This document shows, piece after piece, positions 1,648 through 14,792 of a DNA stretch of 34,673 bases. A program made the position numbers and the translations under genes. The number at the start of each line of letters is the position of its first letter. Position 1 is the first letter of the stretch. Origin of the DNA: a virus; the IMG/VR virus record IMGVR_UViG_3300037504_000746, positions 1-34,673 of that record; one strand, given 5' to 3'. The notes below the pieces were generated by a model, which saw only the letters and a list, made by a program, of their open reading frames with translations, searched no databases and was not told the origin of the DNA.

Positions 1648-3045
1648 TCAGTGTTTTGGAGGAATACCGTAGTATTTCCGCACGTGGTGCACCCAGCGGC
1701 GCTTATATTCTTTCAGGGCGGCATAACGGTAGAGCATATCCAGCTGGATATTAGGGCTCCTTTCCTTAATCCTGTAGATAACCCAACCGGTCTTGTAGCC
1801 CATCGCTTCGCGGTATTGTTCCAGCTCCTCGACACTGCAGGTCTTTGTGTCCGGGGCGGCAATAACTTTCTGTAATTTGGCCTCAACGACTTGCCGGGGC
1901 GTTCGCAAGTCAGCGCCGCAATGAGGGCAAAACTGCATGCTAGCGTAAATCATACGATAGCATTTTTTGCATTGTTTAACAGGTGCTACCCCATCGCCGG
2001 CCTTAACCTTCCCCGACAGCGACCACCGCCGCTCCTGCTCGAAGAACCCGTGACGCTGTACATTTTCTCCGTAATCGAGTACAACACACTTGTCCTTATT
2101 CGCTGCCGGCCGAACCCCTCGCCCGACCATCTGTAGATACAGGGGCACGGAACTTGTCGCGCGCACAAGTGCAACAGCCTCTATTGCCGGTAAGTCGTAT
2201 CCTTCTGTAAGGATTGCAACATTGACAAGATACTGAATCTGGTCGTTTGCAAAAAGGGCAAGTGTACGTTGTCGGTCGGCTTCGTGCATCTTGCTATGTA
2301 GCACACGGGCGCGGGGGAGCTGTTCAGCAAGTTGTTCAGCGTGCTGAATGTTGACTGCGAAGACTATCGTACGCAGCTGCCCCGTGTGCTGCAAAATGCT
2401 TTCCACTACGTTGCTGTAGACCTTCTTCTTATTAAAGCGCTGGTATAATTGCTTTTTATTATAGTCTCCAGCTTGCTTTTTGAGCTTGCTTAGGTCTGCG
2501 ACGCTTGTGCTATAGTACTCAGCAGGCACAAGGTGCTGGTCTTCAATGAGTTGCGCAGCCGTAACCGGCTCTATTATCTGCGTAAATATGTCGCCTAGCG
2601 GCTTCCCATCGAGCCGGGCGGGCGTTGCGGTAAGCCCTATCACGCCTGCAAATTGCGCCTTATCCAATACAGTCGTATAGGATTTGGCGGCGGCGTGGTG
2701 GGCTTCGTCGACGAAGAACAAGTCAGGCACGTACGGCAGCCGCCGACGGCACAAGGTCTGTACACTGGCAACGTTTACAGCTGGCTGCAACTCAGTGTTG
2801 CCGCCCTGTATTATCCCGGCATCGATATTAAATCGTGCAAGTCTTTCGCGGGCTTGGTGAAGCAGCTCCTGCCGGTGCGCTAAGAAGATAACGCGTTTGC
2901 CTTTTGCTGTATAACGCTTTATTATCTCGCAGGCTATCGTTGTCTTGCCCGCGCCGGTGGGGAGCACCAATACCGGGCGCTCCCCGTCCGCAACGGCCGC
3001 ACACGCTTCGTCTACAGCGCGTATCTGATACGGTCGTAACTTCAT
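1648..3045 (-). CDS. Superfamily 2 DEAD/DEAH-box helicase
   Basis: A 465-aa SF2 helicase. Counting from the preferred start, motif I is PTGAGKT (29-35), motif II DEAH (113-116), motif III TATPAR (near 140), and motif VI MVGRGVRP lies in the second RecA-like domain. A CxxC...CxxC zinc ribbon (CKKC, CPHC) follows at about 365-385, then a basic tail. The architecture resembles phage SF2 helicases that remodel DNA in replication or recombination. I chose the ATG at 3045 because it overlaps the upstream nuclease stop as ATGA and because the Q-motif-like KLRPYQ follows at once. An in-frame ATG at 3069 would add eight residues. It sits downstream of the nuclease and annealing protein genes. Confidence 0.92.
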   Translation of the reverse strand: MKLRPYQIRAVDEACAAVADGERPVLVLPTGAGKTTIACEIIKRYTAKGKRVIFLAHRQELLHQARERLARFNIDAGIIQGGNTELQPAVNVASVQTLCRRRLPYVPDLFFVDEAHHAAAKSYTTVLDKAQFAGVIGLTATPARLDGKPLGDIFTQIIEPVTAAQLIEDQHLVPAEYYSTSVADLSKLKKQAGDYNKKQLYQRFNKKKVYSNVVESILQHTGQLRTIVFAVNIQHAEQLAEQLPRARVLHSKMHEADRQRTLALFANDQIQYLVNVAILTEGYDLPAIEAVALVRATSSVPLYLQMVGRGVRPAANKDKCVVLDYGENVQRHGFFEQERRWSLSGKVKAGDGVAPVKQCKKCYRMIYASMQFCPHCGADLRTPRQVVEAKLQKVIAAPDTKTCSVEELEQYREAMGYKTGWVIYRIKERSPNIQLDMLYRYAALKEYKRRWVHHVRKYYGIPPKH

Positions 3046-3818
3046 TGGACGACAAAATTCGGCCGGCAAGAGTAAGGGCTAAGAAATAGTTCCGTCGGCC
3101 TGAGCGGGTTCTTTTTTATCTCAGCTTTCTTGTACTCTTCAAAAGTATCGTACTTCTTTACAGTTCGCACAATATTGTCAGCTATCTCGAATAAGTCCTC
3201 CAGTTCACGTGTTAAGTCATTATAGCCCGCATTGTCTGCCACCTGAAAAGACTTCACGCGATAGGGCGCCTGCTTCTCAACAAATATCCATCGGAATGTG
3301 CCTTGTTCCCACCAGTCCAGCAGATACAGGTACATTGCCGCCTGATGCATATAGCCATATCGATTATATTGGAGTACCTTATAAGCTTCGTCGACATCCG
3401 CAATTGTCTTCAGGTCGTAAATAATATTATTATCGTGGTCGACAAGGTCGGGGGTGCCGTAAAAAGCGTAACCCTTTCCGGTATCTCGTTCGTGCATTTT
3501 CTGTACCTCCTTCTTCTGCACGAAGTCATCCGGCAGGTGTAGGCGCAACGAATCTACGCAGCGCAGCGCCGTTTCATATTTCGACGCAGGCAAATAATAC
3601 GGATGTTCCGTTTTGCGATTGTAGGTGTTCTTTTCCTTGTCTTGCGCCTCCTGCCAAAGGTGCGCCGTATCACTTCCGCCTATATACAGTTCGTCAACCA
3701 TCCGCCCGACCCGCATTGCGGGCGTATCGTAATCGGGCTTATTGTAGTACTGGTATAGGCAGTACTCAAGGTCGTGAAAAACCGCTTGTTTCAGTAAACT
3801 TTGATTGAATCGTAGCAT
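3042..3818 (-). CDS. PD-(D/E)XK exonuclease, RecE/YqaJ-like
   Basis: A 258-aa protein with a PD-(D/E)XK nuclease signature: GTPD (D124), then YDLKT (D135-x-K137), then Q159. This matches the RecE/exodeoxyribonuclease VIII-like group. Such enzymes resect dsDNA ends to give 3' ssDNA for a RecT annealer, which is encoded directly upstream (3837-4559). Together they would form a phage recombination pair for repair, concatemer formation or host-independent recombination. The leader reads CACTAACACAATG with no Shine-Dalgarno sequence. The stop overlaps the SF2 helicase start. Confidence 0.85.
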   Translation of the reverse strand: MLRFNQSLLKQAVFHDLEYCLYQYYNKPDYDTPAMRVGRMVDELYIGGSDTAHLWQEAQDKEKNTYNRKTEHPYYLPASKYETALRCVDSLRLHLPDDFVQKKEVQKMHERDTGKGYAFYGTPDLVDHDNNIIYDLKTIADVDEAYKVLQYNRYGYMHQAAMYLYLLDWWEQGTFRWIFVEKQAPYRVKSFQVADNAGYNDLTRELEDLFEIADNIVRTVKKYDTFEEYKKAEIKKNPLRPTELFLSPYSCRPNFVVQ

Positions 3819-3836
3819 TGTGTTAGTGTTTATAGG

Positions 3837-4559
3837 TTACTTAATTGGCTCAGCCTCAACGGGTTGGCGAGACGTTCGCACTTCCCGCTTCTCTTCCTCG
3901 ACAATCAGGTCAGCCGCCTTGTCGACCATCCCGCGGCGGGGGAGCAGTTTGAACAGCCGACGAAGAGCCGTCTTCTTCGCCATTTCATCGTAATAATCCC
4001 TCCAAGGTCCCGACTTTTGTAGCTTGTTTCCAGCGATGTTGTTGATGTCGGCGGTGTCGAGGTATGTGTACTGATAACCTCCGTCGATAATCTTTGCGAT
4101 AGCATACGCGCCTACGGTCTTGCCGCGGTCGGTGGTGATAGCGGGGCGGTGCTCGAGCAAGGGGTTTTCTGTAGAATACACAAGTGTGAATTCGTCCTGC
4201 TCCTTCACCACCTCTGCGAATATTTCACTAATCGCGCCCGAATCGCGCGCAATCTTCAGCAGGCCTTGGTACATTATAATTACCTGTATGTCATCCGCAT
4301 ACGGTATAATCGTAACCTCCTGACGGGCGGGGTTAAGGCTAAGGCCTAAATCCAAAATTCGAACACAGCTGGCGAACAGCTGTTCAGGGTCTTTTTTGTA
4401 TGCCGCGTCAAGTTTTGGATTGCGGCGCAGGAGGTGCGAGATTTCGAGCCGGGCCTTGTGTGCGGCCTGCTCACTGCCAGTAACCGCGGTTAGTTTCTTA
4501 ACGTGCGCGGTTGTTTTGTAGGGCGTCTCGTTTGAGACTTGCAATTCTTTGTTAGACAT
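3837..4559 (-). CDS. recT: RecT-family single-strand annealing protein
   Basis: A 240-aa RecT homologue. Supporting segments are the core LDLGLSLNPARQEVTIIPY, then IIMYQGLLKIARDSG, and a basic KKTALRRLFKLLP near the end of the domain. RecT proteins coat ssDNA and anneal complementary strands, working with an exonuclease partner; a RecE-like nuclease follows 18 nt downstream. The ATG at 4559 (MSNKELQ) is preferred because it overlaps the upstream gene by only 8 nt. An in-frame ATG at 4586 would add nine residues. The C-terminal tail is charged and probably disordered. Confidence 0.9.
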   Translation of the reverse strand: MSNKELQVSNETPYKTTAHVKKLTAVTGSEQAAHKARLEISHLLRRNPKLDAAYKKDPEQLFASCVRILDLGLSLNPARQEVTIIPYADDIQVIIMYQGLLKIARDSGAISEIFAEVVKEQDEFTLVYSTENPLLEHRPAITTDRGKTVGAYAIAKIIDGGYQYTYLDTADINNIAGNKLQKSGPWRDYYDEMAKKTALRRLFKLLPRRGMVDKAADLIVEEEKREVRTSRQPVEAEPIK

Positions 4560-4866
4560 TATGGTGTTGTTTAATATGTGTGACAATATTGTCTACGTCG
4601 GTGGGCAATTTCGCGAGGTCGGTCTGATGCTCAGCGTCAACCTCGCCTCGGGGTATACCGGCCAGCATAATCGGCTGATTTTGAAGGCCATCGGCGCTCA
4701 ATATAACCCCTGCCTGCTGCTTCATTGCGACCGGCTTGCAGGCTTTGCACTTGACTTGCAGTTGATTCGTCAACTCAAAGAATTCAACTTTGTAGTCGTC
4801 GTGTACGTAAAGATAATAGACCCACCCCGCGTGTCGCAGGGTGAGCCCGATACCGGTGGAGGTCAT
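4552..4866 (-). CDS. Hypothetical protein (104 aa)
   Basis: Not recognised. A 104-aa soluble protein with an N-terminal beta-rich half (WVYYLYVHDDYKVEFFELT) and a CKAC pair in the middle, too little for a zinc site alone. It starts with an ATGA overlap with the upstream gene and runs 8 nt into recT, so it belongs to the recombination operon and is probably translationally coupled. The position suggests an accessory to RecT or DNA metabolism, but nothing in the sequence demonstrates this. Confidence 0.7.
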   Translation of the reverse strand: MTSTGIGLTLRHAGWVYYLYVHDDYKVEFFELTNQLQVKCKACKPVAMKQQAGVILSADGLQNQPIMLAGIPRGEVDAEHQTDLAKLPTDVDNIVTHIKQHHNV

Positions 4867-5501
4867 ACGTTCTTCAGTTTATTGTTGATAAAATCTTCTT
4901 TCGCCTTTTCGTAGGCGCGCTCCATTAGCTTGTGCAAGTCGGCGCGGCGGTCGTCGTACTTAGCGACGATTTCCGGAGGGACAATATGATACTCATACAG
5001 TATTTCATCTTCGCGATAACCTAAAGCGATACGTTCAGAGTACTCATTGTACACCTGCTTATAATCATCGTCGTCTGTATAAGACCCGCTAAAGCGCTGA
5101 AGGTAGTTGTCTACTTTTAGCAAAAATCTGCTTGCGCTGTCGTGATTACCCTTGTCAATATTCGAGATAAAGAACTTGCAACTCAGCTTGCCTTCTGTAA
5201 CGCGAATGACTTCGCAAGAAAGGTAATCTTCTCTATGATAGCACGCTGGCGGCTGCAGCTCTACTCGCAGAGCTATCTCGCAGTGCTCCTGCGCAGCAAA
5301 GTTGATAAACCACGCGGCGGCGGCGGCGGTTGTGTCGTCTTTATCGGTGTCGTAATCTTTCGCAATGTGTTCGTGCGTCATAGCGTCTAAAAACGTCGCG
5401 TCGACGACAACGTTATCCCGTCGAAAGATTAGCGCCCAGCCGGGCAGGTGTGTCTGTGTGCTTATTAACGCGTCTTTTCGTGTGTCGTTAGTGTTAGTCA
5501 T
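4863..5501 (-). CDS. Hypothetical protein, MTNTN-type N-terminus
   Basis: Not recognised. About 212 aa, acidic, with a run of five alanines encoded by a short triplet repeat near 5316-5330 and a charged helical C-terminus. I place the start at the second ATG (5501), where the coding start MTNTN and its DNA match the starts of the genes at 6153 and 7053; an ATG at 5507 is equally in frame. The downstream junction is an ATGA overlap. It lies in the replication/recombination operon downstream of the promoter at 6186-6217. Confidence 0.75.
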   Translation of the reverse strand: MTNTNDTRKDALISTQTHLPGWALIFRRDNVVVDATFLDAMTHEHIAKDYDTDKDDTTAAAAAWFINFAAQEHCEIALRVELQPPACYHREDYLSCEVIRVTEGKLSCKFFISNIDKGNHDSASRFLLKVDNYLQRFSGSYTDDDDYKQVYNEYSERIALGYREDEILYEYHIVPPEIVAKYDDRRADLHKLMERAYEKAKEDFINNKLKNV

Positions 5502-5512
5502 TGTCATAGAGG

Positions 5513-5914
5513 TTAAACAAGTTTGATTAAAATCGGCGAACCGTCGTCGTCTTTGCCGGACTTCACGAATCCCTTGTCGATAAGGTCGGTAATTACCTGG
5601 TCGAGTTCTGCGTCATTAAAGCCGACGGCCTCCTTTACGTGCTTACGACGGAAGACACGCCCAACACTGAACCACCATCTTGGGTATTGTGATGCCGGTA
5701 TTTCGCAATAGTTGAGCAATTCTTTCGCTCTCAGCAGCCATTCTGCCGCAATGTCGAGTTGTGTTGCAATGTCGAGCGCTGCCTCTTCAGCTGAGGCGTG
5801 CTGCTCATTACACTTGAGTTCTGTGAGATACTCGTACTGCTTAAACAGTCGAGTTAGCGCGTCGGCTGTGCGCGAGTGCGCGGCGTTAATATACTTCTGT
5901 TGTTCTTGTGTCAT
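5513..5914 (-). CDS. Hypothetical protein with a possible C-terminal winged helix
   Basis: A 133-aa protein of unknown family. The first 70 residues are predicted helical and alanine-rich. The C-terminal part (about 90-133, including VKEAVGFNDAELDQVITDLI and KGFVKS) has the helix-helix-strand pattern of a winged-helix DNA-binding domain. The leader carries CACTAAAAACAATG, a variant of the A/C-rich start element shared in this operon. It lies between two other small unknown genes in the early operon, so a regulatory or ssDNA-related role is possible but unproven. Confidence 0.75.
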   Translation of the reverse strand: MTQEQQKYINAAHSRTADALTRLFKQYEYLTELKCNEQHASAEEAALDIATQLDIAAEWLLRAKELLNYCEIPASQYPRWWFSVGRVFRRKHVKEAVGFNDAELDQVITDLIDKGFVKSGKDDDGSPILIKLV

Positions 5915-5925
5915 TGTTTTTAGTG

Positions 5926-6153
5926 TTAGTCGTCAAATACAATGGCGTCTCCGTCCTGCAGCGCTTCGATAAGTTGACTGGCGGCGGCTTTGGTGAGCTT
6001 GCGCTGGCCTTGCGTGTTTGATCTGAAAGGCAGCTCTACGCTTGCGTCATAGGCCAGCTTAAAGATGTAGTTAATTTGGGCGTATGTTGCAGCCTGAAAA
6101 CTTCCGGCTTTGTGCCAGCTGAGTTCGATTGTGATTGTGTTAGTGTTAGTCAT
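5926..6153 (-). CDS. Small hypothetical protein, first gene of the replication operon
   Basis: A 75-aa protein beginning MTNTNTITIEL. The C-terminal half (about 28-70, QINYIFKLAYDA then LTKAAASQLIEAL) resembles a helical module that recurs at the ends of various phage and plasmid proteins (DUF3072-like pattern; resemblance only). I chose the ATG at 6153 because the promoter and leader upstream (6154-6217) leave no room for the longer reading. It is the first gene behind the promoter at 6186-6217. Confidence 0.72.
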   Translation of the reverse strand: MTNTNTITIELSWHKAGSFQAATYAQINYIFKLAYDASVELPFRSNTQGQRKLTKAAASQLIEALQDGDAIVFDD

Positions 6154-6185
6154 TGTGTTGTCGGCTAGTGTTGAACAATATGTGT

Positions 6186-6217
6186 CAAAGATAGCGATGA
6201 ATCGGATACGGCGCAAG
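6186..6217 (-). promoter_or_regulatory. Bacteroidota-type promoter of the replication operon
   Basis: On the minus strand: CTTG (6217-6214), exactly 20 nt, then TATCTTTG (6193-6186), matching the Bacteroidota sigma-factor consensus (TTG/TTTG, about 20 nt, TAnnTTTG). The -7 box ends 32 nt before the ATG at 6153. The leader is nearly identical to that of the promoter at 7084-7115. Expected to drive the leftward operon 6153 to 33972 across the circular junction. Confidence 0.75.
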
Positions 6218-6234
6218 GGGTTGGGCGGGAAATC

Positions 6235-6441
6235 TCATTTTTTTTCGTCAGATAGCGCGTCATAAAGCCGCAGCAACGTTTCAAGGGAAGGGTTCATTTC
6301 TTGCCGCTCTATCCTCGAAACAACTGCCCGGGAGAGGCCGGCTTTTTGAGCTAACTCAGTTTGCGTTAGCCTTAATTTTATGCGCCGCCGATAAACCTCT
6401 CCAGCGATTATTTTCCGAAACTTTTTGTAAACAGTTTGCAT
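6235..6441 (-). CDS. XRE/Cro-family helix-turn-helix regulator
   Basis: A 68-aa single-domain protein. The helix-turn-helix occupies about residues 23-46 (LTQTELAQKAGLSRAVVSRI), and the length is typical of Cro-like repressors. It would bind an operator as a dimer and tune phage transcription. It sits between a terminator (6458-6487) and the replication-operon promoter (6186-6217), so that promoter is an obvious candidate target. No TAnnTTTG promoter is visible directly upstream, so expression may depend on read-through of the terminator. No second repressor or integrase is present to suggest a lysogeny switch. Confidence 0.85.
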   Translation of the reverse strand: MQTVYKKFRKIIAGEVYRRRIKLRLTQTELAQKAGLSRAVVSRIERQEMNPSLETLLRLYDALSDEKK

Positions 6442-6457
6442 AGTAACGTGTTTGGGT

Positions 6458-6487
6458 GAAAAAAAGAACCCGCCCCGGTGGGGCGGG
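6458..6487 (-). terminator. Rho-independent terminator (leftward)
   Basis: A perfect 8-bp G+C stem (CCCGCCCC at 6469-6476 pairing with GGGGCGGG at 6480-6487) with a 3-nt loop. On the minus strand it is followed by a T-rich run (TTCTTTTTTTC). It lies just after the gene ending at 6511 and before the XRE gene start at 6441. Confidence 0.8.
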
Positions 6488-6510
6488 GTGGTGTGGTGTG
6501 GGGGTGTGGC

Positions 6511-7053
6511 TTACCAGCCGTCTTCACCGGCAATCGCGAATCCAAATCCGCGAGCGTAGTTTTTAATCCAAGTTGTGTGTTCGCGGCACCCGTTACTGAT
6601 TGTCCTGACGTCTCGCGTAATTCCTACTAAATGAACTAGCCACTGCAGGCGGCGAAACAGGCGCTTGATTTCTTTCTCTTCTTTGCGCCGGTCGCGCTCG
6701 GGCTGCGCCTGCAGCTTAACAAGCTTGCGGTAGGTGTAAATGACGTAGTAGGCGGCGCTATCGAGCGGGGTCTTGTACTCCTTTTTCTTCGCCTTCAACG
6801 CGCCGGCGTCGTAGAGCTCAATCTCTTGCAAGAGATGCGCCTCAAAAATGTTTTGACGGATGCAGCCGGCTTTATCAAACAGGTTGGTGTGCTCGCGACT
6901 CACCCAATCAGCGAGGGTGTTGATTTGCTTAGCTTTGCGCGCTGCGTCCTCGTACAGCTGGCGCAGGTCGTAGGCGGTTACCTTTTGCTTGTTCTCAAAT
7001 ACCCAGTTCAAAGTGTGGCGGGCGGGGGCGGGGGTGTTGTTAGTGTTCGTCAT
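6511..7053 (-). CDS. Hypothetical protein in a monocistronic early unit
   Basis: Not recognised. A 180-aa basic, mainly helical protein beginning MTNTNNTPAPARH. Residues about 100-150 are rich in Lys/Arg (including KLVKLQAQPERDRRKEEKEI), suggesting nucleic-acid contact or a coiled coil. I chose the ATG at 7053 because a promoter and leader occupy 7054-7115. It has its own promoter and a terminator just downstream, so it is probably a separately controlled early gene. Function unknown. Confidence 0.75.
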   Translation of the reverse strand: MTNTNNTPAPARHTLNWVFENKQKVTAYDLRQLYEDAARKAKQINTLADWVSREHTNLFDKAGCIRQNIFEAHLLQEIELYDAGALKAKKKEYKTPLDSAAYYVIYTYRKLVKLQAQPERDRRKEEKEIKRLFRRLQWLVHLVGITRDVRTISNGCREHTTWIKNYARGFGFAIAGEDGW

Positions 7054-7083
7054 CGTTGTGTCGGTTAGTGTTGAACAATATGT

Positions 7084-7115
7084 CAAAGATAACAATGAAT
7101 CTAATGCGATGCAAG
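7084..7115 (-). promoter_or_regulatory. Bacteroidota-type promoter (copy 2)
   Basis: On the minus strand: CTTG (7115-7112), 20 nt, then TATCTTTG (7091-7084), followed by a leader containing TATTGTTCAACACTAACCGA and the ATG at 7053. Boxes, spacing, leader and the first coding bases match the promoter at 6186-6217 closely, so the two look like duplicated expression units. Confidence 0.75.
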
Positions 7116-7132
7116 TGGTCGCCACAAGAAAA

Positions 7133-7160
7133 TTAAAAAACCCCCGGGGGAAAGGGGGCT
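7133..7160 (-). terminator. Rho-independent terminator (leftward, second of a pair)
   Basis: CCCCC (7141-7145) and GGGGG (7154-7158) form the stem. On the minus strand the hairpin is followed by TTTTTTAATTTTC. It is almost a copy of the hairpin at 7264-7288. A weaker 6-bp hairpin (7172-7189) lies between them. Confidence 0.7.
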
Positions 7161-7263
7161 TTGTTCCTATCCAGCCCGGGGTGGGGCTGAATAGTAGCTA
7201 CTAAATACAAACAAAAAGCGAGGTAAAACTACGAATCTTTGCTGAAAGACGCAAGCCCGGACA

Positions 7264-7288
7264 AAGAAAACCCCCGGGGAAAGGGGGC
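7264..7288 (-). terminator. Rho-independent terminator (leftward, first of a pair)
   Basis: CCCCC (7271-7275) and GGGGG (7282-7286) form the stem, followed on the minus strand by TTTTCTTTG. It lies about 50 bp after the last gene of the lysis arm (stop at 7341) and marks the end of that transcription unit. Confidence 0.7.
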
Positions 7289-7340
7289 TCTACGATTGTT
7301 CCTTGTCTATCTCGCTAATTTTCAGGGCTTTGGGTTTGAG

Positions 7341-7592
7341 TTAGACAATGTGTGCAAGTTGGGCTTTTGTTTCGAGAAGTTCAAATTCGTCGTCAAAAAG
7401 CTTAACAACACGCGTGCCGGTTTGGTAGTAAGTATCGCGCAGGTGTATGCGCCTAGGCGTAGGATTATCCAGCTCTACAGTATATAACTGCTCCGTATGC
7501 GGTTGTTGCGTATCTACGATTGTCCCCAGCACGTTAAGCCCATACGGCCGGTATATCTTCACCTGTACGCGTTGGCCTTCTGGATTACACAT
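7341..7592 (-). CDS. Small hypothetical protein, beta-rich
   Basis: An 83-aa protein of unknown family. Short alternating hydrophobic strands (RVQVKIYRPYGL, LGTIVDTQ, LYTVELDN) suggest a small SH3-like beta barrel. It overlaps the amidase gene by 8 nt and is the last gene before the twin terminators, so it is co-transcribed with the lysis genes. A lysis-accessory role is possible but not demonstrated. Confidence 0.7.
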   Translation of the reverse strand: MCNPEGQRVQVKIYRPYGLNVLGTIVDTQQPHTEQLYTVELDNPTPRRIHLRDTYYQTGTRVVKLFDDEFELLETKAQLAHIV

Positions 7593-8199
7593 ATTGCAAT
7601 AATGTATTTGCGATTAGGTGCGCAATGCGCCCTTGCTTGTTATGATATTCGCTTATTTCGTCTTTGTTTGTTATAAAGCAAACTTCTAGTAGGATGACTC
7701 GGGGCTTTGTGTGTAAGATGCCCAGCCGGCTGTGTTGACTCTGCCGTTCGCTCTTCACTCCCCTATTTGCACTTCTCAGGTTTGTGGCGATATATTGTAC
7801 CAAGTGCGTCGCCAGCGCCCGGTTCTCTGCGCTTGTTTCGTCGTGCACATAGGCCTCTACGCCCTTTGCAACTGGGGTTGCGGCGTTAAAATGGATGTTT
7901 AGGACAACGTCTTCAGCGGCATACTTGCTGTTGAGCATTTGTATCTTTTGAGGCAACCCTTGGCTGATTGCAAGGTAGCTTACCGGCTGGGCTGGTTCCA
8001 TGTGCTTGAGTACATTGTACACCTCCGTGCCAAGTTCTTTAGCCAACTCAGCTTCCTGATATCCATTCGCCACCGCGCCCGGGTCGGCGCCGCCGTGCCC
8101 GGGAAGTATTACAATGTGTCTTAAAGGTCGGTCGTTTCTAAGTAGTCCTCCAGCCAGTCTTCCAGCTGCCGCGCCGCCTTCGTTATGCAATGTCGACAT
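7585..8199 (-). CDS. N-acetylmuramoyl-L-alanine amidase (Amidase_3), phage endolysin
   Basis: A 204-aa Amidase_3-type zinc amidase that cleaves the MurNAc-L-Ala bond of peptidoglycan to release progeny. Expected zinc ligands are H35 (PGHGGADPG), E49 and H103 (NIHFNA); the catalytic glutamate is E172 (LLEVCFITN). No signal peptide or membrane segment is visible, so access to the wall would need the holin-like proteins upstream. The domain starts at about residue 27; the first 26 residues are encoded in the 79 nt shared with the preceding gene in another frame, so the true start could lie slightly downstream. Neighbours with membrane segments support a lysis role. Confidence 0.9.
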   Translation of the reverse strand: MSTLHNEGGAAAGRLAGGLLRNDRPLRHIVILPGHGGADPGAVANGYQEAELAKELGTEVYNVLKHMEPAQPVSYLAISQGLPQKIQMLNSKYAAEDVVLNIHFNAATPVAKGVEAYVHDETSAENRALATHLVQYIATNLRSANRGVKSERQSQHSRLGILHTKPRVILLEVCFITNKDEISEYHNKQGRIAHLIANTLLQYV

Positions 8200-8360
8200 G
8201 TCGTTATTGGTTTAGATGATTTTGGGTGAAAGTGTATAAACAGTTGTATGAAGCGCTGAAAAAAGGGGTCGTAGTGTGTCGTCCTCCAGCGCTCACGTCC
8301 TGAGCGCTTACTTTGCAACACCTCCTGTACGCTTTCTAGGTCTTTGTATGTAATCTCCAT
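8121..8360 (-). CDS. Small hypothetical protein with a CxxC pair
   Basis: A 79-aa protein of unknown family beginning MEITYKDLESVQEVL. It has an aromatic/histidine-rich middle (FFQRFIQLFIHFH) and a CRHC motif before an acidic helical end. The ATG at 8360 is preferred; a GTG at 8363 sits directly upstream, touching the stop of the preceding gene. Its last 26 codons overlap the amidase N-terminus in another frame (8121-8199). Lysis-cassette accessory by position only. Confidence 0.65.
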   Translation of the reverse strand: MEITYKDLESVQEVLQSKRSGRERWRTTHYDPFFQRFIQLFIHFHPKSSKPITTCRHCITKAARQLEDWLEDYLETTDL

Positions 8361-8362
8361 CA

Positions 8363-8902
8363 CTACTTAGTAAAGAGTCGATAACCTAGCATTATGTTGT
8401 GCGCACCTTGCACGTTGTAAGTGTAGCCGGCAAACAGGCGGCGGTAGCCTACCCAACCCCCTGCGCCGGCAGGGTGCGATATCATTATACCGCCCTGAAA
8501 ATCAGGGGGCTTCTCGCGAATTTGAATCTCGGTCGTCGTCGTGTGTTGGCGCTGTACGCTGTACGCAAAGTCGAGATCGAGCAGTTCGCCGCATACAAGA
8601 GCGTTAGACTCAAGTGTAAGTACACTGTCCTCGTAGTGCGTTGTGTACACTTGTCCGGTGTCGTTGCAGCTCACTACAACCGTATCGCGCACCTGCACCG
8701 TTTGCGTTGTCTCCTTTGTCCTTACTACTGTGTCGCGTACAGTAGTAGGTATTGCAACGGTAACTGTGTCGTAGTGGTCTAGGTATACAGTGCGAGTTTC
8801 GACAACAGGATCTTGCACAACCAGTTCGTCGGTCGGTGCAAGTATCCAGCCGATGATCCCGCCGCATACGAGCAAAAACAGGTACAGTGGTATATCTTTC
8901 AT
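8363..8902 (-). CDS. Membrane-anchored protein, spanin or lysis-accessory candidate
   Basis: A 179-aa protein with one N-terminal hydrophobic segment (about 4-22), then a Thr/Val-rich region containing VRDTVV twice (around residues 55-77), then a C-terminal part rich in Gly and aromatic residues (about 137-176, including GWVGYRRLFAGYTYN) that looks like short beta-strands of an outer-membrane hairpin. Inner-membrane anchor plus periplasmic linker plus beta segment fits a protein spanning the periplasm, such as a spanin, and the location between holin-like and amidase genes agrees. No lipobox is seen. Function inferred. Confidence 0.7.
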   Translation of the reverse strand: MKDIPLYLFLLVCGGIIGWILAPTDELVVQDPVVETRTVYLDHYDTVTVAIPTTVRDTVVRTKETTQTVQVRDTVVVSCNDTGQVYTTHYEDSVLTLESNALVCGELLDLDFAYSVQRQHTTTTEIQIREKPPDFQGGIMISHPAGAGGWVGYRRLFAGYTYNVQGAHNIMLGYRLFTK

Positions 8903-8906
8903 TGGG

Positions 8907-9248
8907 TTACATTAGGTTGTTATCACGAATGTAGGTTGCAAATTCTTCGGTGGAAGTACACACCACCGGGGCGGGGTATTTTGCATCGGTAGCCTGACGC
9001 CACCACGCTTCTTGCTTATCTGATAGCTTCTCGCCCGGCCTCTTAACTTCAACGAATCGCACCCCTTTTTTGCTGTACAGAATGAGGTCAGGGTGCCCCG
9101 GGAATACCCCCATCGCGTTGTGTCTCAGCTGCTTGCGCGCCGAATTGCCCCCCGCTTCGTTAACGACCGCCTGCAGCCGCCACTGATCGTCGGGGTATGT
9201 GTCCCTAAACCATTTTACAATTATTGATTGTATTTTTGCCTCGCTCAT
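8907..9248 (-). CDS. VRR-NUC domain nuclease
   Basis: A 113-aa stand-alone VRR-NUC fold of the PD-(D/E)XK superfamily. The active-site pattern is visible: an early glutamate, GHPD (D54), then FVEVKRP (E67-x-K69) and a following helix (LSDKQEAWWRQA). Family members include Holliday-junction-resolvase-like nucleases. It would cut branched DNA before packaging or degrade host DNA. Its place inside the lysis block (ATGA overlap with the holin-like gene) is not with the replication genes, which suggests late expression. Substrate unproven. Confidence 0.85.
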   Translation of the reverse strand: MSEAKIQSIIVKWFRDTYPDDQWRLQAVVNEAGGNSARKQLRHNAMGVFPGHPDLILYSKKGVRFVEVKRPGEKLSDKQEAWWRQATDAKYPAPVVCTSTEEFATYIRDNNLM

Positions 9249-9469
9249 TGCTTCTGCTTATTAGCGTTGTCGCTCTTCTCGACCACCCCTGCGGCCAGCA
9301 TACCGGCAGATGCATATAACAAAGCCTGATACAAGACTTCATTTACATCATACCAGTGAAGGCCGTCGAGGAGGTAAGTAAGCAGGGTTGTAGTAAAGCC
9401 GGTCAGCCCTACAACTCGCTTAGAGCTAAGCTTGCCGGCGCGGTCTTGTACAAGTTCTTTCCAGTTCAT
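9245..9469 (-). CDS. Holin-like membrane protein
   Basis: A 74-aa protein with two hydrophobic segments (about 20-37 and 47-63) separated by a short loop with an aromatic pair, a basic N-terminal region (GKLSSKRVVG) and a charged C-terminal tail. Size, topology and the SSKR start of the first segment fit small class II-like holins of Bacteroidota phages. It would permeabilise the inner membrane so that the amidase reaches peptidoglycan. Start codon and preceding stop overlap as TAATG. Confidence 0.75.
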   Translation of the reverse strand: MNWKELVQDRAGKLSSKRVVGLTGFTTTLLTYLLDGLHWYDVNEVLYQALLYASAGMLAAGVVEKSDNANKQKQ

Positions 9470-9750
9470 TATCGTTTGTCGATAAGGCTCAATATTGTGC
9501 TATGGTAGGTTTTTAAGCTTTCGTTTAGCTCTTCTATCTTTTCCGACATGTTTTTTAGCTCCGATTTTAGTACTTTTGTAGCGCCTGACACACGATTGAG
9601 CTCAGCTTCGGTATTTGCTTGCTTCGCGTGCGTCTCTTTCATTTTGTTTTCGAGCTCCGAAAGCTTAGCCTTTAGCAGGCCGTAAGCCACGCCGAAGCCC
9701 CCCACGACGACAACAAGTGCTAAGATTTCCGTTAATGTACGTACGTCCAT
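9469..9750 (-). CDS. Membrane-anchored coiled-coil protein (lysis accessory)
   Basis: A 93-aa protein with one N-terminal transmembrane segment (about 7-27, ILALVVVVGGFGVAYGLL) followed by a long coiled coil to the C-terminus. This layout resembles XhlA-type holin partners and inner-membrane spanin subunits. It is directly upstream of the holin-like gene with a 1-nt overlap. Choosing between the two roles needs experiment. Confidence 0.72.
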   Translation of the reverse strand: MDVRTLTEILALVVVVGGFGVAYGLLKAKLSELENKMKETHAKQANTEAELNRVSGATKVLKSELKNMSEKIEELNESLKTYHSTILSLIDKR

Positions 9751-9766
9751 AAGTTGCAGTTATTTT

Positions 9767-10642
9767 TTACAAAGGTACATCAAAATCCTCTATAGACGGC
9801 GCGCCCGGAAAGGCATCGGCGCGTATTATATCACTCTCCGTCTCTCCTTCTTCGTCCTTGTATACAAGAACGTAAGCTACAATGTACTGGTTTCTATCCT
9901 TAATTTGTCGAGGTTGTGGCTCTCGGCGGGCTTGCCCCTGCACAATTTCGAGCCCTTCTTCCCCCTTGTCATATACAAGCGTATCGATGCGGGGCATATT
10001 GCTTGCATTACTTAGTGTGATAGTTTGCGCCGGCACGTTTACGGCATCGGCCGAGCTGCTGAGCGCCAGCCGGGTTGCTTGTATTGTTGCAACGTTGCCG
10101 GCGGCATCAACTTCGCCCCCCAAAACAACTCGCGCAACCTGCCCCCGCGCGGGGGGCACAGCCCCAACCGGCCGCCGACGGCGCGGTGCGTCAGGAAACA
10201 AAGCAGGCACATCGCGTGCAACGTCATCGCGCGTTACTGCGTCCTGCCTATCGACGCGCAAATTTTTAATGTAAAAGCTGCGCCACTGGCTGCCGTTGAC
10301 CCGTGCTACGGTAAAGTCCCAGTAGGGCAACAGACCAAATTTTCGGGGGCCTCTACCCCCCTTGAAGGTGTATGTAAACAGCGCCGTGTTCCGGGTGCCG
10401 GTCGCCCGCCGAATGCGACGCTTGATGACTGCGAAGTACTTAAAGTCAACCACCCCCTCATCAAGCCGGGCGCGAATGGTGCGGGTGCTGAGGTGTAAAA
10501 GCTTGCGCGCGTCGGGGCTAAGTGCGCTGTATTCCTCATCCGTAAACGGCTGAGTGTCAACCACTAGCGCCACCCGGCTATTCATTTGATACACCGGGAT
10601 GTTCTTTGCTCCTGCGCGTTTTTTAGCTACTGCTACACTCAT
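9767..10642 (-). CDS. Fibre- or baseplate-like structural protein
   Basis: A 291-aa protein. The N-terminal half is basic and not recognised. An Ala/Pro/Arg-rich linker (about 150-170) precedes a C-terminal domain (about 170-265) with the pattern NMPRIDTLVYD, VQGQARREPQPRQI, YIVAYVLV. The same pattern occurs in the rightward-arm protein at 31287-32171 and is common near the start of phage tail-fibre and baseplate proteins. Likely a virion surface component or receptor-binding adaptor. Its ATG overlaps the stop of the 722-aa glycosyltransferase/oxygenase gene (ATGA), so the two are probably made together. Confidence 0.65.
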   Translation of the reverse strand: MSVAVAKKRAGAKNIPVYQMNSRVALVVDTQPFTDEEYSALSPDARKLLHLSTRTIRARLDEGVVDFKYFAVIKRRIRRATGTRNTALFTYTFKGGRGPRKFGLLPYWDFTVARVNGSQWRSFYIKNLRVDRQDAVTRDDVARDVPALFPDAPRRRRPVGAVPPARGQVARVVLGGEVDAAGNVATIQATRLALSSSADAVNVPAQTITLSNASNMPRIDTLVYDKGEEGLEIVQGQARREPQPRQIKDRNQYIVAYVLVYKDEEGETESDIIRADAFPGAPSIEDFDVPL

Positions 10643-12807
10643 ACTCTACACTCTGACCAGTACCCGCCGAGCTCAAACGTAGTAACACCGTTGATGCTTT
10701 CCTTGCCCGTAGGCTTGAAATCGTCAGGGTGTATAATACGAAAATCTATTGAAAACCGGCTGTAGTCTTTATTGATTATGTTGCCGTGCCGCAACTCGGC
10801 ACCCTTGAAGGCTAAAATTTGGCCGTATGATACTTCTGGAGCTATCTTGCCCGCCGGAGCTTCAATGTGTATCGTATTAGTATGCGTTGTGTCAACGAAG
10901 GGCAGCCAAAGATTTACCTCTTCGGGCTGGTGCCCATAATCGCTATCTACGTGCCATTCCCCTACGCTCACATTATTTACCAAGTGCGCCCGGAAGGAGG
11001 GCACTGATTGATAGTACAGGTGGGTGTGCCCGAGTAATTTACAAATGTCAACAATGAAGGCTTTGTACAGCTCGCGCAGAAGCGGCTTCTCTTGCCATGC
11101 TTTGTAAAATCGTTTATGATACAACGTATTGGTGTCCTCCTCGCGCGTAAGGACTTTGTCCAGCTGTACTGCCTCCTTAAGGTTCGAGAGCTGTAGTATC
11201 AAGCGCATATATTCACGCCATTTATATTTTTCAGTGTCGTATTCGAGGAGGTAGGGCTCCTTTTGTCGATACTCTTTTACGGTCGTATGTTTTGCGATTT
11301 GCATAGGCTTGCTTTGTACAGGTATTGTTCGTTTCTTGTAGTGTTCGCAAAGATTCGTGATGACGCGCTCAAAGGCGTGAGCTTGTGTGTTGTCGAGCTG
11401 CCCCGCCTCCGGCTCAAAGTAGTCTTGCGTTAGCCCTTGATTCTTAATGTGTTGTAGCAGCTGAGGGGCACACCACCACATTGTCCCGGCTATGTATTTC
11501 TTGTGTCGATAAGTAACGTTTATGCGCTTCGCGAAATGTTTGCAGTGTTCGTGCGTTGCCCCGTTGCGAATATACCAGCGCCGAGTTCCTACAATCCCGC
11601 CTTTTTTGTCGAGATGCTGTATGCATTCGCGCACTTTTGCGGGGCTGCTCATTATCGCACCTAATAATTCTTTGCGCCAGCGCTTGCCCTTGCCGGGCTC
11701 TTGCTTTGTGTGTTTACTATGTATAAAGGCACAATAATCGTAGCTGGCAGGGTTGCTGGAGTTCAGCAGGTTGACCAACCCCCCTATGTCTCTACCTCGG
11801 TTTTCTGACACTAGTACAGTAGCGGTAGGGAATTCGACCTTAATTTGTCGCCGCATTGCTTCGGTCTCCGTGCCGCGTTGTACCTGATTTACGTACACTT
11901 TTACCCGCAGCCCGGCGTGCTGCACATTGCGTATTGCATTCGCCAGTTCAGCCCAAAGGTCGTAATAATACATGTGTACGTATATCGCGGCAGTTTTGTA
12001 CATAGCCGGTACGTGTTTAGTAAGCTCGCTTGCCGTATCGGCTACTAAAGTATCATTTTTTAACTCTTCGCGTAGCAGTTCTAGCTTAGCCCCCGGCACT
12101 ACTTTGCGAAAGAAATAATAATCGCGGCTATCTTTTAGCTGCTGCGCGCCCAGCCCGGCAAATTTGCGCGGGTGGCGGCTTCGGCTAGGCCACGAGGTGT
12201 AGGTAGTTGGGAATGAAACTATTTCATCGTCTCTACCAAAGCGCCTTAAGCAGCTGGCGGCAAAGTGTTCGTTGTCTGCAAAGACTTTTGACGGTGCACG
12301 CATATCTGGCGGGCAGCAGAAGAGCCGGCGAACTTCCCTGTTGTTTTGTCGCAACACCTCTACGTGTTCTCGACTAATCCAATACCATTGTTCGTGCCAG
12401 TAGATACTATCTCTTATATCCGGGTGTACTTTCCGGCCGCCTCGGGCGTGGTTAAATGTGCTTTCGTGCAATGACGCAAAGTAGCTGCAATTTGCAGCAC
12501 GAGTAGAAAGCGTATCCAACAATGCTTCATAAGACCGGCGCGGGACACAGCTTTCGCTAGCTAAGATTAGATGACTCGCTGAGGTTTTCAAAAATTCTTC
12601 GTACAGCGCGAAGTGCGCATTAATCGTTGATTCCCAGCGCGTTGGTACTGTTCTGACGACTCTCACATCGTTCGTCAGCTGTGCCGGCTGCCCGGCCCCT
12701 TTTTTGTGCTGGTGAAAAATAGCCGTGCCGCGCCCGTCAAACCATTCGGTCCAGATGTCGGGACAGTGTACGGAATCTGCAACTAAGAAGCCTATTGCTA
12801 TACTCAC
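10639..12807 (-). CDS. Three-domain glycan-modifying enzyme: GT14-like + RgpF-like + StrG-like oxygenase
   Basis: A 722-aa protein with three recognisable parts. Residues about 1-230 resemble Core-2/I-branching (GT14-like) N-acetylglucosaminyltransferases (SHLILASESCVP, then WHEQWYWISREH, then FADNEHFAASCL). Residues about 273-490 match the rhamnan-synthesis RgpF family (IYVHMYYYDLW, ENRGRDIGG, FIHSKHTK, IAGTMWWC, AHAFERV). Residues about 575-690 resemble the StrG-like Fe(II)/2-oxoglutarate oxygenase family: H619-x-D621, H674 and R684 (GEWHVDSDYGH, LRHGN, SRFSIDFR). A single chain that could transfer sugars and then oxidise or hydroxylate a product fits modification of virion or host-surface glycans. 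Its coupling to a fibre-like gene supports that. Enzyme activities are inferred from motifs. Confidence 0.8.
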   Translation of the reverse strand: MSIAIGFLVADSVHCPDIWTEWFDGRGTAIFHQHKKGAGQPAQLTNDVRVVRTVPTRWESTINAHFALYEEFLKTSASHLILASESCVPRRSYEALLDTLSTRAANCSYFASLHESTFNHARGGRKVHPDIRDSIYWHEQWYWISREHVEVLRQNNREVRRLFCCPPDMRAPSKVFADNEHFAASCLRRFGRDDEIVSFPTTYTSWPSRSRHPRKFAGLGAQQLKDSRDYYFFRKVVPGAKLELLREELKNDTLVADTASELTKHVPAMYKTAAIYVHMYYYDLWAELANAIRNVQHAGLRVKVYVNQVQRGTETEAMRRQIKVEFPTATVLVSENRGRDIGGLVNLLNSSNPASYDYCAFIHSKHTKQEPGKGKRWRKELLGAIMSSPAKVRECIQHLDKKGGIVGTRRWYIRNGATHEHCKHFAKRINVTYRHKKYIAGTMWWCAPQLLQHIKNQGLTQDYFEPEAGQLDNTQAHAFERVITNLCEHYKKRTIPVQSKPMQIAKHTTVKEYRQKEPYLLEYDTEKYKWREYMRLILQLSNLKEAVQLDKVLTREEDTNTLYHKRFYKAWQEKPLLRELYKAFIVDICKLLGHTHLYYQSVPSFRAHLVNNVSVGEWHVDSDYGHQPEEVNLWLPFVDTTHTNTIHIEAPAGKIAPEVSYGQILAFKGAELRHGNIINKDYSRFSIDFRIIHPDDFKPTGKESINGVTTFELGGYWSECRV

Positions 12808-13174: not shown

Positions 13175-13984
13175 TTATTCGTCGGTCTGTTGTTGCGGGC
13201 TGTTGTTGGTAGGGACATCATTCAGGTTTATGTCGGGCGACCAATCGCTCAGTCCTGCAATCACGAATGAATCGTGAAGTTCAGCGCCTGCTTTGGTAGG
13301 GTAGAAAAGGCGGCCTGGGTTGGTTTGACCATCCGGCAATTGCAGCAGGCCTGCAAGTTGGAGGGAAACCCAAGCATATTTTTCACGGGGGCTTGCTTTC
13401 TCATCAGGTTTAATATGAATTTCAAAGTTCACACTAAGGGCGTATTCTTTGATAAGCTGTTTTTGGGTGCCGTTTTCGTGGTCAATTTTAGCAAACGCTT
13501 GCAACGCTTTGGCATTGGAGTGTTGGTATACGCGAATTTTAGTTTCTCCTTTTTCGTCCTGAAGAAATTTCACATTGTGTTTGATTTCATCAGTATCGTG
13601 TTCAGCTGCATTAGTGAACAGCTGACTGGTGGCAACGTGTAGTTTGCTGTACATACTTAGAAATTCTTTTAGGTATATGCTTTCAAGGAAAAAGCTGCCA
13701 ATTTTGTACTGCATAGTTTTAGCAATTGCTTTACCAGCACTGGTTAGGCGTGCTTTGTAAATCTGTTTGCTAGGCAAATAGGCAACCGAAATTAGGTTCC
13801 TAGTAGCAAAGAACACACACAACGATATTTCAAATTCATCATCAGGGTGCGTGTACGTCACGGGCTGGTTTTGCAGCAGATTAGCAAATAGTTCTTCGCT
13901 TTCGGAATCCTTTCGGACTTCGTAAAGGCTTTCGGCTGCAATATGCTTATAATGCAGCGGTAGGTGTTCGAGCAGGTTTTTCAT
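13175..13984 (-). CDS. Hypothetical protein with C-terminal PTKxG motif
   Basis: A 269-aa protein of unknown family. Its C-terminal part contains FYPTKAGAELHDSFVIAGLS, which matches the end of the protein at 14793-15524 (PTKxG, six residues, F, two residues, AG, hydrophobic, Ser/Thr, then Trp). That implies the two are distant paralogues flanking the DUF5131 gene. The start overlaps the DUF5131 stop as ATGA. A winged-helix-like fold is possible. A complex with DUF5131 is plausible from gene order only. Confidence 0.7.
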   Translation of the reverse strand: MKNLLEHLPLHYKHIAAESLYEVRKDSESEELFANLLQNQPVTYTHPDDEFEISLCVFFATRNLISVAYLPSKQIYKARLTSAGKAIAKTMQYKIGSFFLESIYLKEFLSMYSKLHVATSQLFTNAAEHDTDEIKHNVKFLQDEKGETKIRVYQHSNAKALQAFAKIDHENGTQKQLIKEYALSVNFEIHIKPDEKASPREKYAWVSLQLAGLLQLPDGQTNPGRLFYPTKAGAELHDSFVIAGLSDWSPDINLNDVPTNNSPQQQTDE

Positions 13985-14787
13985 ATCAGTTCACTTAATT
14001 CGTTTAAGGGTTTGTCAATTGCGTTGCGTTTGGGATTCGCTAAGTTTTCGAGTAGCTGTTCAGGGTATTCATCCCAGGTTTGCCCGTCCAGGGTTCGGCC
14101 CGCTGCTTTTTTGTTGCGCCCACCCCATTGTTTGAAAAAGAATGGCACGTTCTGTTCGTGGCATTGGTAGCGGATTTCACGAACCCATTCGGGGTGCATT
14201 GGTCGGGCTTTAGGGCCGCTTTCTCCTCCTACAATTACCCAGTCTATTCCGGACAAATCTAAGTTTGGCAGCGGGCCTAATAAGGGCTCCAGCGATAGGA
14301 ATTTATAGCCGTTTGCTTTTTTCAGCTCTTCTAAGCGGCTTAAAACGCGCTCGCTTTCAATTGACGTGCCTACCCAGACATTTTCCAGCGGTTGGATTTT
14401 CACCCATTCATCTTTGATTTTGTCATACAGCCGATAACAGTTGTAGTGGATTCGTTCTGGGCGTTTCGTTAGCACCTGGAATTGGTGCCAATACGCTTTT
14501 GCCATCGTATGATAAATTTCCTGCACAAACCAGGGGGCAATATCTTCGTGGTAGAGGTCGCTCATCGAATTCACGAAAACCATTTTAGGCTTCTTCCAAT
14601 GCAGGGGCGTGTTAATTTGGTCGAGGTGCATTCTGACCTTCCCAAAGCCTTCGCTGTATTTTTCAACGTCCATCGCTTGAAGCCGCTTGGTCATCGTTTC
14701 TGCATAGCAGTGTTTGCAGCCAGCACTGACTTTCGTGCACCCGGTCACGGGGTTCCAAGTCTTTTCAGTCCATTCGATTTTACTCAT
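13981..14787 (-). CDS. DUF5131 family protein (phage Gp37/Gp68-like, radical-SAM-like cysteines)
   Basis: A 268-aa protein with the family's N-terminal signature SKIEWTEKTWNPVTGC and a C17-x6-C24-x2-C27-Y-A-E cluster of the kind that binds an iron-sulphur centre. Other conserved segments are VFVNSMSDLYHEDI, LTKRPER, WVGTSIES, LSLEPLLGPL and VIVGGESG. The family is widespread in phages and mobile islands, often with a three-Cys-motif partner (TcmP), and its reaction is unknown. No TcmP is present here; unknown genes flank it instead. The ATG at 14787 gives the usual N-terminus; a GTG at 14790 is adjacent. Confidence 0.9.
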   Translation of the reverse strand: MSKIEWTEKTWNPVTGCTKVSAGCKHCYAETMTKRLQAMDVEKYSEGFGKVRMHLDQINTPLHWKKPKMVFVNSMSDLYHEDIAPWFVQEIYHTMAKAYWHQFQVLTKRPERIHYNCYRLYDKIKDEWVKIQPLENVWVGTSIESERVLSRLEELKKANGYKFLSLEPLLGPLPNLDLSGIDWVIVGGESGPKARPMHPEWVREIRYQCHEQNVPFFFKQWGGRNKKAAGRTLDGQTWDEYPEQLLENLANPKRNAIDKPLNELSELI

Positions 14788-14792
14788 CACTA

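Follow-up and report, generated by a model that had tools for sequence, protein, structure and literature searches.

A phage protein of 722 aa joins two glycosyltransferase-like domains to a StrG-like Fe(II)/2-oxoglutarate (2OG) oxygenase, and it is quite likely a soluble enzyme of several domains that builds a short glycan and oxidises it. The gene lies in IMGVR_UViG_3300037504_000746, a 34.7-kb tailed-phage record, the whole of which was analysed and is called the window here (Table 1). A sequence-only reading of this DNA had described a single 722-aa chain at 10639-12807 and gave no strand; one open frame indeed covers this interval, and we add that it runs on the minus strand. The protein has a mass of 84 kDa and a pI of 9.2, and no transmembrane segment was found by Kyte-Doolittle analysis. 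The fusion is real and coherent and probably functional; it looks like a real enzyme because dozens of viruses have a separate oxygenase gene, often beside sugar-attaching genes.

Table 1. The fusion gene, its domains and the overlapping gene (positions in the window)
Feature	Position	Strand	Remark
722-aa fusion gene	10639..12807	-	GTG start at 12807, stop 10639-10641; one uninterrupted frame
GT14/'Branch'-like domain, residues 1-235 (Pfam match 48-218)	12103..12807	-	PF02485
RgpF-like glycosyltransferase domain, residues 233-484	11356..12111	-	PF05045
StrG-like Fe(II)/2-oxoglutarate oxygenase domain, residues 506-722	10642..11292	-	H619, D621, H674, R684
291-aa gene overlapping the fusion gene by ATGA	9767..10642	-	weak matches

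The window carries genes for Terminase_3, portal, an XkdF-type protease, tape measure, RecT, amidase and helicase. Every portal relative among named phages has a Bacteroidota host, and the virus probably infects Bacteroidota bacteria. Nonlabens phage P12024S has relatives of the window helicase, VRR-NUC, terminase, protease and portal; no relative of the fusion protein was found in it. Another window gene, at 13981-14790, belongs to DUF5131 (Pfam E 1.6e-94); in two viral contigs, L004 and L005, its relatives lie upstream of the terminase gene.

By its predicted fold and its conserved residues, the C-terminal third of the protein is a 2OG/Fe(II) oxygenase. The parts of the fusion were folded separately because an alignment of the full-length protein with all relatives put RgpF rows onto the oxygenase. 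The AlphaFold model of residues 506-722, built from 37 sequences, reached a pLDDT of 88 and a pTM of 0.86. Foldseek returned 47 PDB matches at E < 1e-3, and all 50 PDB matches listed were Fe(II)/2OG-type enzymes, at modest TM-scores of 0.31-0.55. These include proline hydroxylase H11, GriE, EctD and PHYHD1, as well as the antibiotic-sugar enzymes KanJ, AviO1 and EvdMO1; in a viral library, the matches at a similar distance were 2OG oxygenases from cyanophages and from giant viruses. The four residues that the sequence-only reading had assigned to the HxD...H...R motif (H619, D621, H674 and R684) were correctly numbered and, together with R690, are invariant in 55 of 55 distinct sequences, and the 2OG fold it had expected is borne out by the matches of the model.

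No Pfam oxygenase family matched the fusion protein. The NCBIfam model TIGR04324 ('sporadic carbohydrate cluster 2OG-Fe(II) oxygenase') gave a weak match (E 4.5e-9, 36 bits against a cut-off of 150), as it did for 37 of the 37 family members tested (36-41 bits); since these scores lie far under the curated cut-off, we do not claim membership of the subfamily. Two relatives of the oxygenase on plasmids carry the annotation 'streptomycin biosynthesis enzyme StrG', and it is annotation of this kind that supports the StrG label. The description of the domain as a StrG-like oxygenase is thus in keeping with the weak TIGR04324 match, the confident model and the annotated plasmid relatives. Plasmid StrG-like genes of Azospirillum and Mycetohabitans (L172 and L173) have a conserved neighbourhood; upstream of them lie genes for two large hypothetical proteins and for a protein with a tetrapyrrole-methylase domain (the domain in L172).

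The RgpF-like domain matched its Pfam family with an E value of 1.1e-22 (80.8 bits against a cut-off of 25), which agrees with its original assignment. Coverage of the model was partial, comprising positions 232-495 of 503 only, that is, the C-terminal half. The conserved RgpF residues are kept in the fusion, and relatives of the domain were found in viral contigs L087, L088 and L089 and in one 595-kb phage. The relevant protein of this uncultured phage (L084, 7917-9575) has 552 aa and carries a further C-terminal region in addition to its RgpF-like domain. For the GT14-like domain, a single line of evidence upholds the call, namely the PF02485 'Branch' match at residues 48-218 (E 3.8e-9, 36.9 bits against a cut-off of 23.4). 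No relative of this domain was found in viral contigs or plasmids. E180 lies in the sequence 'NEHF', which we take to resemble the PDE motif of GT14 enzymes.

Residues 1-505, including the GT14-like region, folded poorly (pLDDT 44, near 75 or more only at about residues 270-335), because three RgpF relatives and no GT14 relatives were usable. All 50 PDB matches listed for this weak model were glycosyltransferases or the glycosyltransferase-bearing collagen lysyl hydroxylase 3 (LH3). These matches support, but do not prove, a GT-A fold for the RgpF-like domain, and they are no evidence on the GT14-like domain. The glycosyltransferase folds predicted by the earlier reading were therefore recovered by Foldseek, although from a weak model. 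Searching PDB sequences with the fusion protein and with profiles of its domains brought up nothing relevant; a single Csm2 match in these searches was taken as chance, and Pfam matches to Urb2 and Tea_helical were dismissed as below cut-off.

To the extent of the collections searched, the combination of GT14-like, RgpF-like and oxygenase domains was unmatched elsewhere; the sequence-only reading, too, knew of no described phage protein with this trio. Searches of viral contigs, of 50,697 phage records and of 72,556 plasmids turned up no full-length relative; the phage records gave a single RgpF-domain match, in the 595-kb phage, and the plasmid matches listed were all to the RgpF domain. Two domain-alignment scans of bacterial genomes, one with an oxygenase pair and one with an RgpF pair, likewise yielded no relative; as these were the only scans, absence of the fusion from bacterial genomes is weakly supported. 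The oxygenase was unmatched in the 50,697 named phage records with the window protein, L002, L087 or L098 as query. Within a partial coverage of the literature, no paper tying StrG to a dioxygenase or to a phage was found, which is weak evidence of novelty, and a search for phage, 2OG-Fe and glycosyltransferase, also of partial coverage, returned general studies of phage auxiliary genes only. The domain combination is new; phage genes for glycan modification are already known as a kind.

As a separate gene, the oxygenase is widespread in metagenomic viruses. A scan of viral contigs with the whole fusion protein gave one oxygenase relative, L002, and a scan with an alignment of three oxygenases gave 86 contigs, 80 of which were kept (32-44% identity), so that at least 80 viral contigs carry a stand-alone oxygenase. 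In 81 of 81 frames examined it is a gene of its own, of 195-264 aa, and is never fused. Weak matches of nine of these oxygenases to phrog_274 (endonuclease V) were taken as chance.

The order of the fusion recurs in the 94-kb contig L087, where the oxygenase gene comes directly after an RgpF-like gene (9995-10654). The longest oxygenase frame begins at 10588, inside the RgpF-like gene, and its alignable part starts after an ATG at 10669, which makes the two genes adjacent. Some 2 kb upstream of this pair (7001-7777) is a von Willebrand-type gene that includes a short collagen-like stretch of G-x-y, and its product is a conceivable acceptor candidate. L160 has three consecutive genes: one RgpF-like (Pfam E 1.3e-6), one RmlD-like and the oxygenase gene. 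RgpF is present in only these two of the 15 oxygenase-bearing viral records tested. Directly upstream of the oxygenase in several loci are GT2, GT34, GT10, DUF5672, RmlD or RgpF genes; other loci have a dUTPase gene or unassigned genes in that upstream place. Among 81 oxygenase neighbours, GT2 is the commonest family (8), followed by epimerase, GDP-mannose dehydratase, RmlD and DegT families; as there was no control set of other viral genes, these counts are a description and not an enrichment. Two of the loci (L121, 8657-9982; L137, 2191-3507) offer further examples of glycan-enzyme fusion: the gene just before the oxygenase joins a GT34 glycosyltransferase to a methyltransferase domain. In L002, a dense carbohydrate-like cluster (2337-12252) surrounds the StrG-like oxygenase, with genes for a second, different 2OG oxygenase, a radical SAM/SPASM protein, an aminotransferase, a phosphoribosyltransferase, a phosphorylase and a GT2.

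We propose that the GT14-like and RgpF-like domains would each transfer one sugar from host nucleotide-sugars, and that the C-terminal oxygenase would then hydroxylate or oxidise the sugar. Host nucleotide-sugars are proposed because the 25 of 29 Pfam families listed for the window include no recognised NDP-sugar gene. The homology to RgpF is a hint that the sugar may be rhamnose or another deoxy-sugar like it. The fusion would hold together steps that are carried out by separate, adjacent genes in other viruses. The substrates, the order of the steps, the activity of each domain and the acceptor are all inferred. Stand-alone oxygenases often lie just after a glycosyltransferase gene, and this, together with the split pair of L087, supports the building and oxidation of a glycan. 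The same idea in the sequence-only reading, of two glycosyltransferases and a 2OG oxygenase that build and then oxidise a sugar, gains from the folds, the invariant residues, the viral neighbourhoods and the L087 pair. The roles which that reading had offered as examples, a block to superinfection or the hiding of virions, are putative, as is any catalysis by the GT14-like domain. Against the building and oxidation of a sugar stand the single Pfam match behind the GT14-like domain and the low pLDDT of residues 1-505, as well as the relatives that follow non-glycosyltransferase genes and the small share of tested records with RgpF.

If the protein does act on a glycan, the likeliest acceptor would be one of the virion proteins, modified in the cytoplasm during late infection, for which we would give slightly less than an even chance; a host surface-glycan precursor comes second, as a plausible but lesser candidate. 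The slight lean towards a virion protein comes from the position of the gene, just upstream of an amidase-containing, lysis-like group, and from the window having no recognised integrase. The gene that overlaps the fusion gene had been read as fibre-like. The ATGA overlap is exact, but the fibre assignment was not supported: the product gave weak matches only, to WYL_2 (Pfam) and phrog_1086, had no relative in 50,697 phage records and did not significantly resemble other structural proteins of the same phage.

The order of folds invites a different explanation, in which a phage or host protein is the substrate: the oxygenase would place a hydroxyl on one of its amino-acid side chains, and one glycosyltransferase domain, or both, would then glycosylate this hydroxyl. 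Human LH3 has the same order, of GT, GT-like and 2OG domains, with only its first glycosyltransferase domain active (PMC6082870), and mimivirus L230 joins a collagen lysyl hydroxylase to a hydroxylysyl glucosyltransferase (PMC9546862). LH3 is also among the PDB matches of residues 1-505, and the amino-acid hydroxylases H11, GriE and EctD are among the best matches of the oxygenase. By this analogy, it is possible that the fusion works like LH3. We nevertheless consider such an activity unlikely, as the 2OG domain resembles the PhyH/StrG type and its viral relatives sit in clusters of NDP-sugar and glycosyltransferase genes. The fusion protein has no PLOD-type Pfam match (E up to 1) and the window proteins contain no collagen-like repeat of five or more G-x-y, and for these two reasons we do not file the fusion in the LH3/PLOD family. 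Similarly, there is a slim chance that the phage independently assembled the LH3 layout and with it hydroxylates and glycosylates its own virion proteins, the fusion being the fused, visible end of a widespread, unstudied viral family of oxygenases linked to glycans.

Hydroxylation of a DNA base by the oxygenase and its glycosylation by the other domains, as with phage TET enzymes and DNA glycosyltransferases, would have a precedent in phages reported to pair the two activities (literature cited in PMC11404850 and PMC12619734). It appears highly improbable here, given that the fusion protein has no TET/JBP Pfam match, that the 25 of 29 Pfam families listed for the rest of the window include no cytosine methyltransferase, and that the oxygenase relatives keep company with NDP-sugar genes. 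A merger of two or three separate genes by sequencing or assembly error is very unlikely, even though every viral relative has the oxygenase as a gene of its own, the fusion occurs in one contig only and the linkers (residues 236-270 and 491-520) have lower GC3. The frame is clean, the first linker falls inside the RgpF profile match, which begins at residue 233, the conserved residues of the RgpF and oxygenase domains are kept, and each domain has the same GC3 as other genes in this phage.

Glycosylation of virions, DNA and the host surface by phages is already known; within a partial coverage of the literature, no phage enzyme was found described as also oxidising the sugar that it adds. The fusion names a type of glycosyltransferase that partners the StrG-like oxygenase, making function testable in at least 80 metagenomic viral contigs, and the larger point may be an unstudied family of viral StrG-like oxygenases, often beside glycosyltransferase genes. 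Each part of the protein has a known counterpart. Residues 48-218 match the GT14 / Core-2/I-branching enzymes over the cut-off, whereas this domain was without relatives in the viruses and plasmids searched; residues 233-484 do likewise for the RgpF family (rhamnan synthesis protein F), but with about half of the Pfam model present and in fusion with GT14-like and oxygenase domains. With the TIGR04324 oxygenases the C-terminal domain shares a weak model match, the HxD...H...R residues and, in its viral relatives, a carbohydrate-gene neighbourhood; it differs in scoring far under the cut-off and in sitting behind two glycosyltransferase-like domains. Phage glycosyltransferases can decorate virion proteins, as in mycobacteriophages (cited in PMC12619734), and the present protein is similarly phage-encoded; it is fused to an oxygenase, and no such fusion was found reported in the literature covered. 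Compared with LH3/PLOD3 and mimivirus L230, the fusion has a 2OG domain of a different subfamily, no PLOD match and no collagen-like substrate in the window, but it resembles both in that one chain joins glycosyltransferase folds to a 2OG oxygenase.
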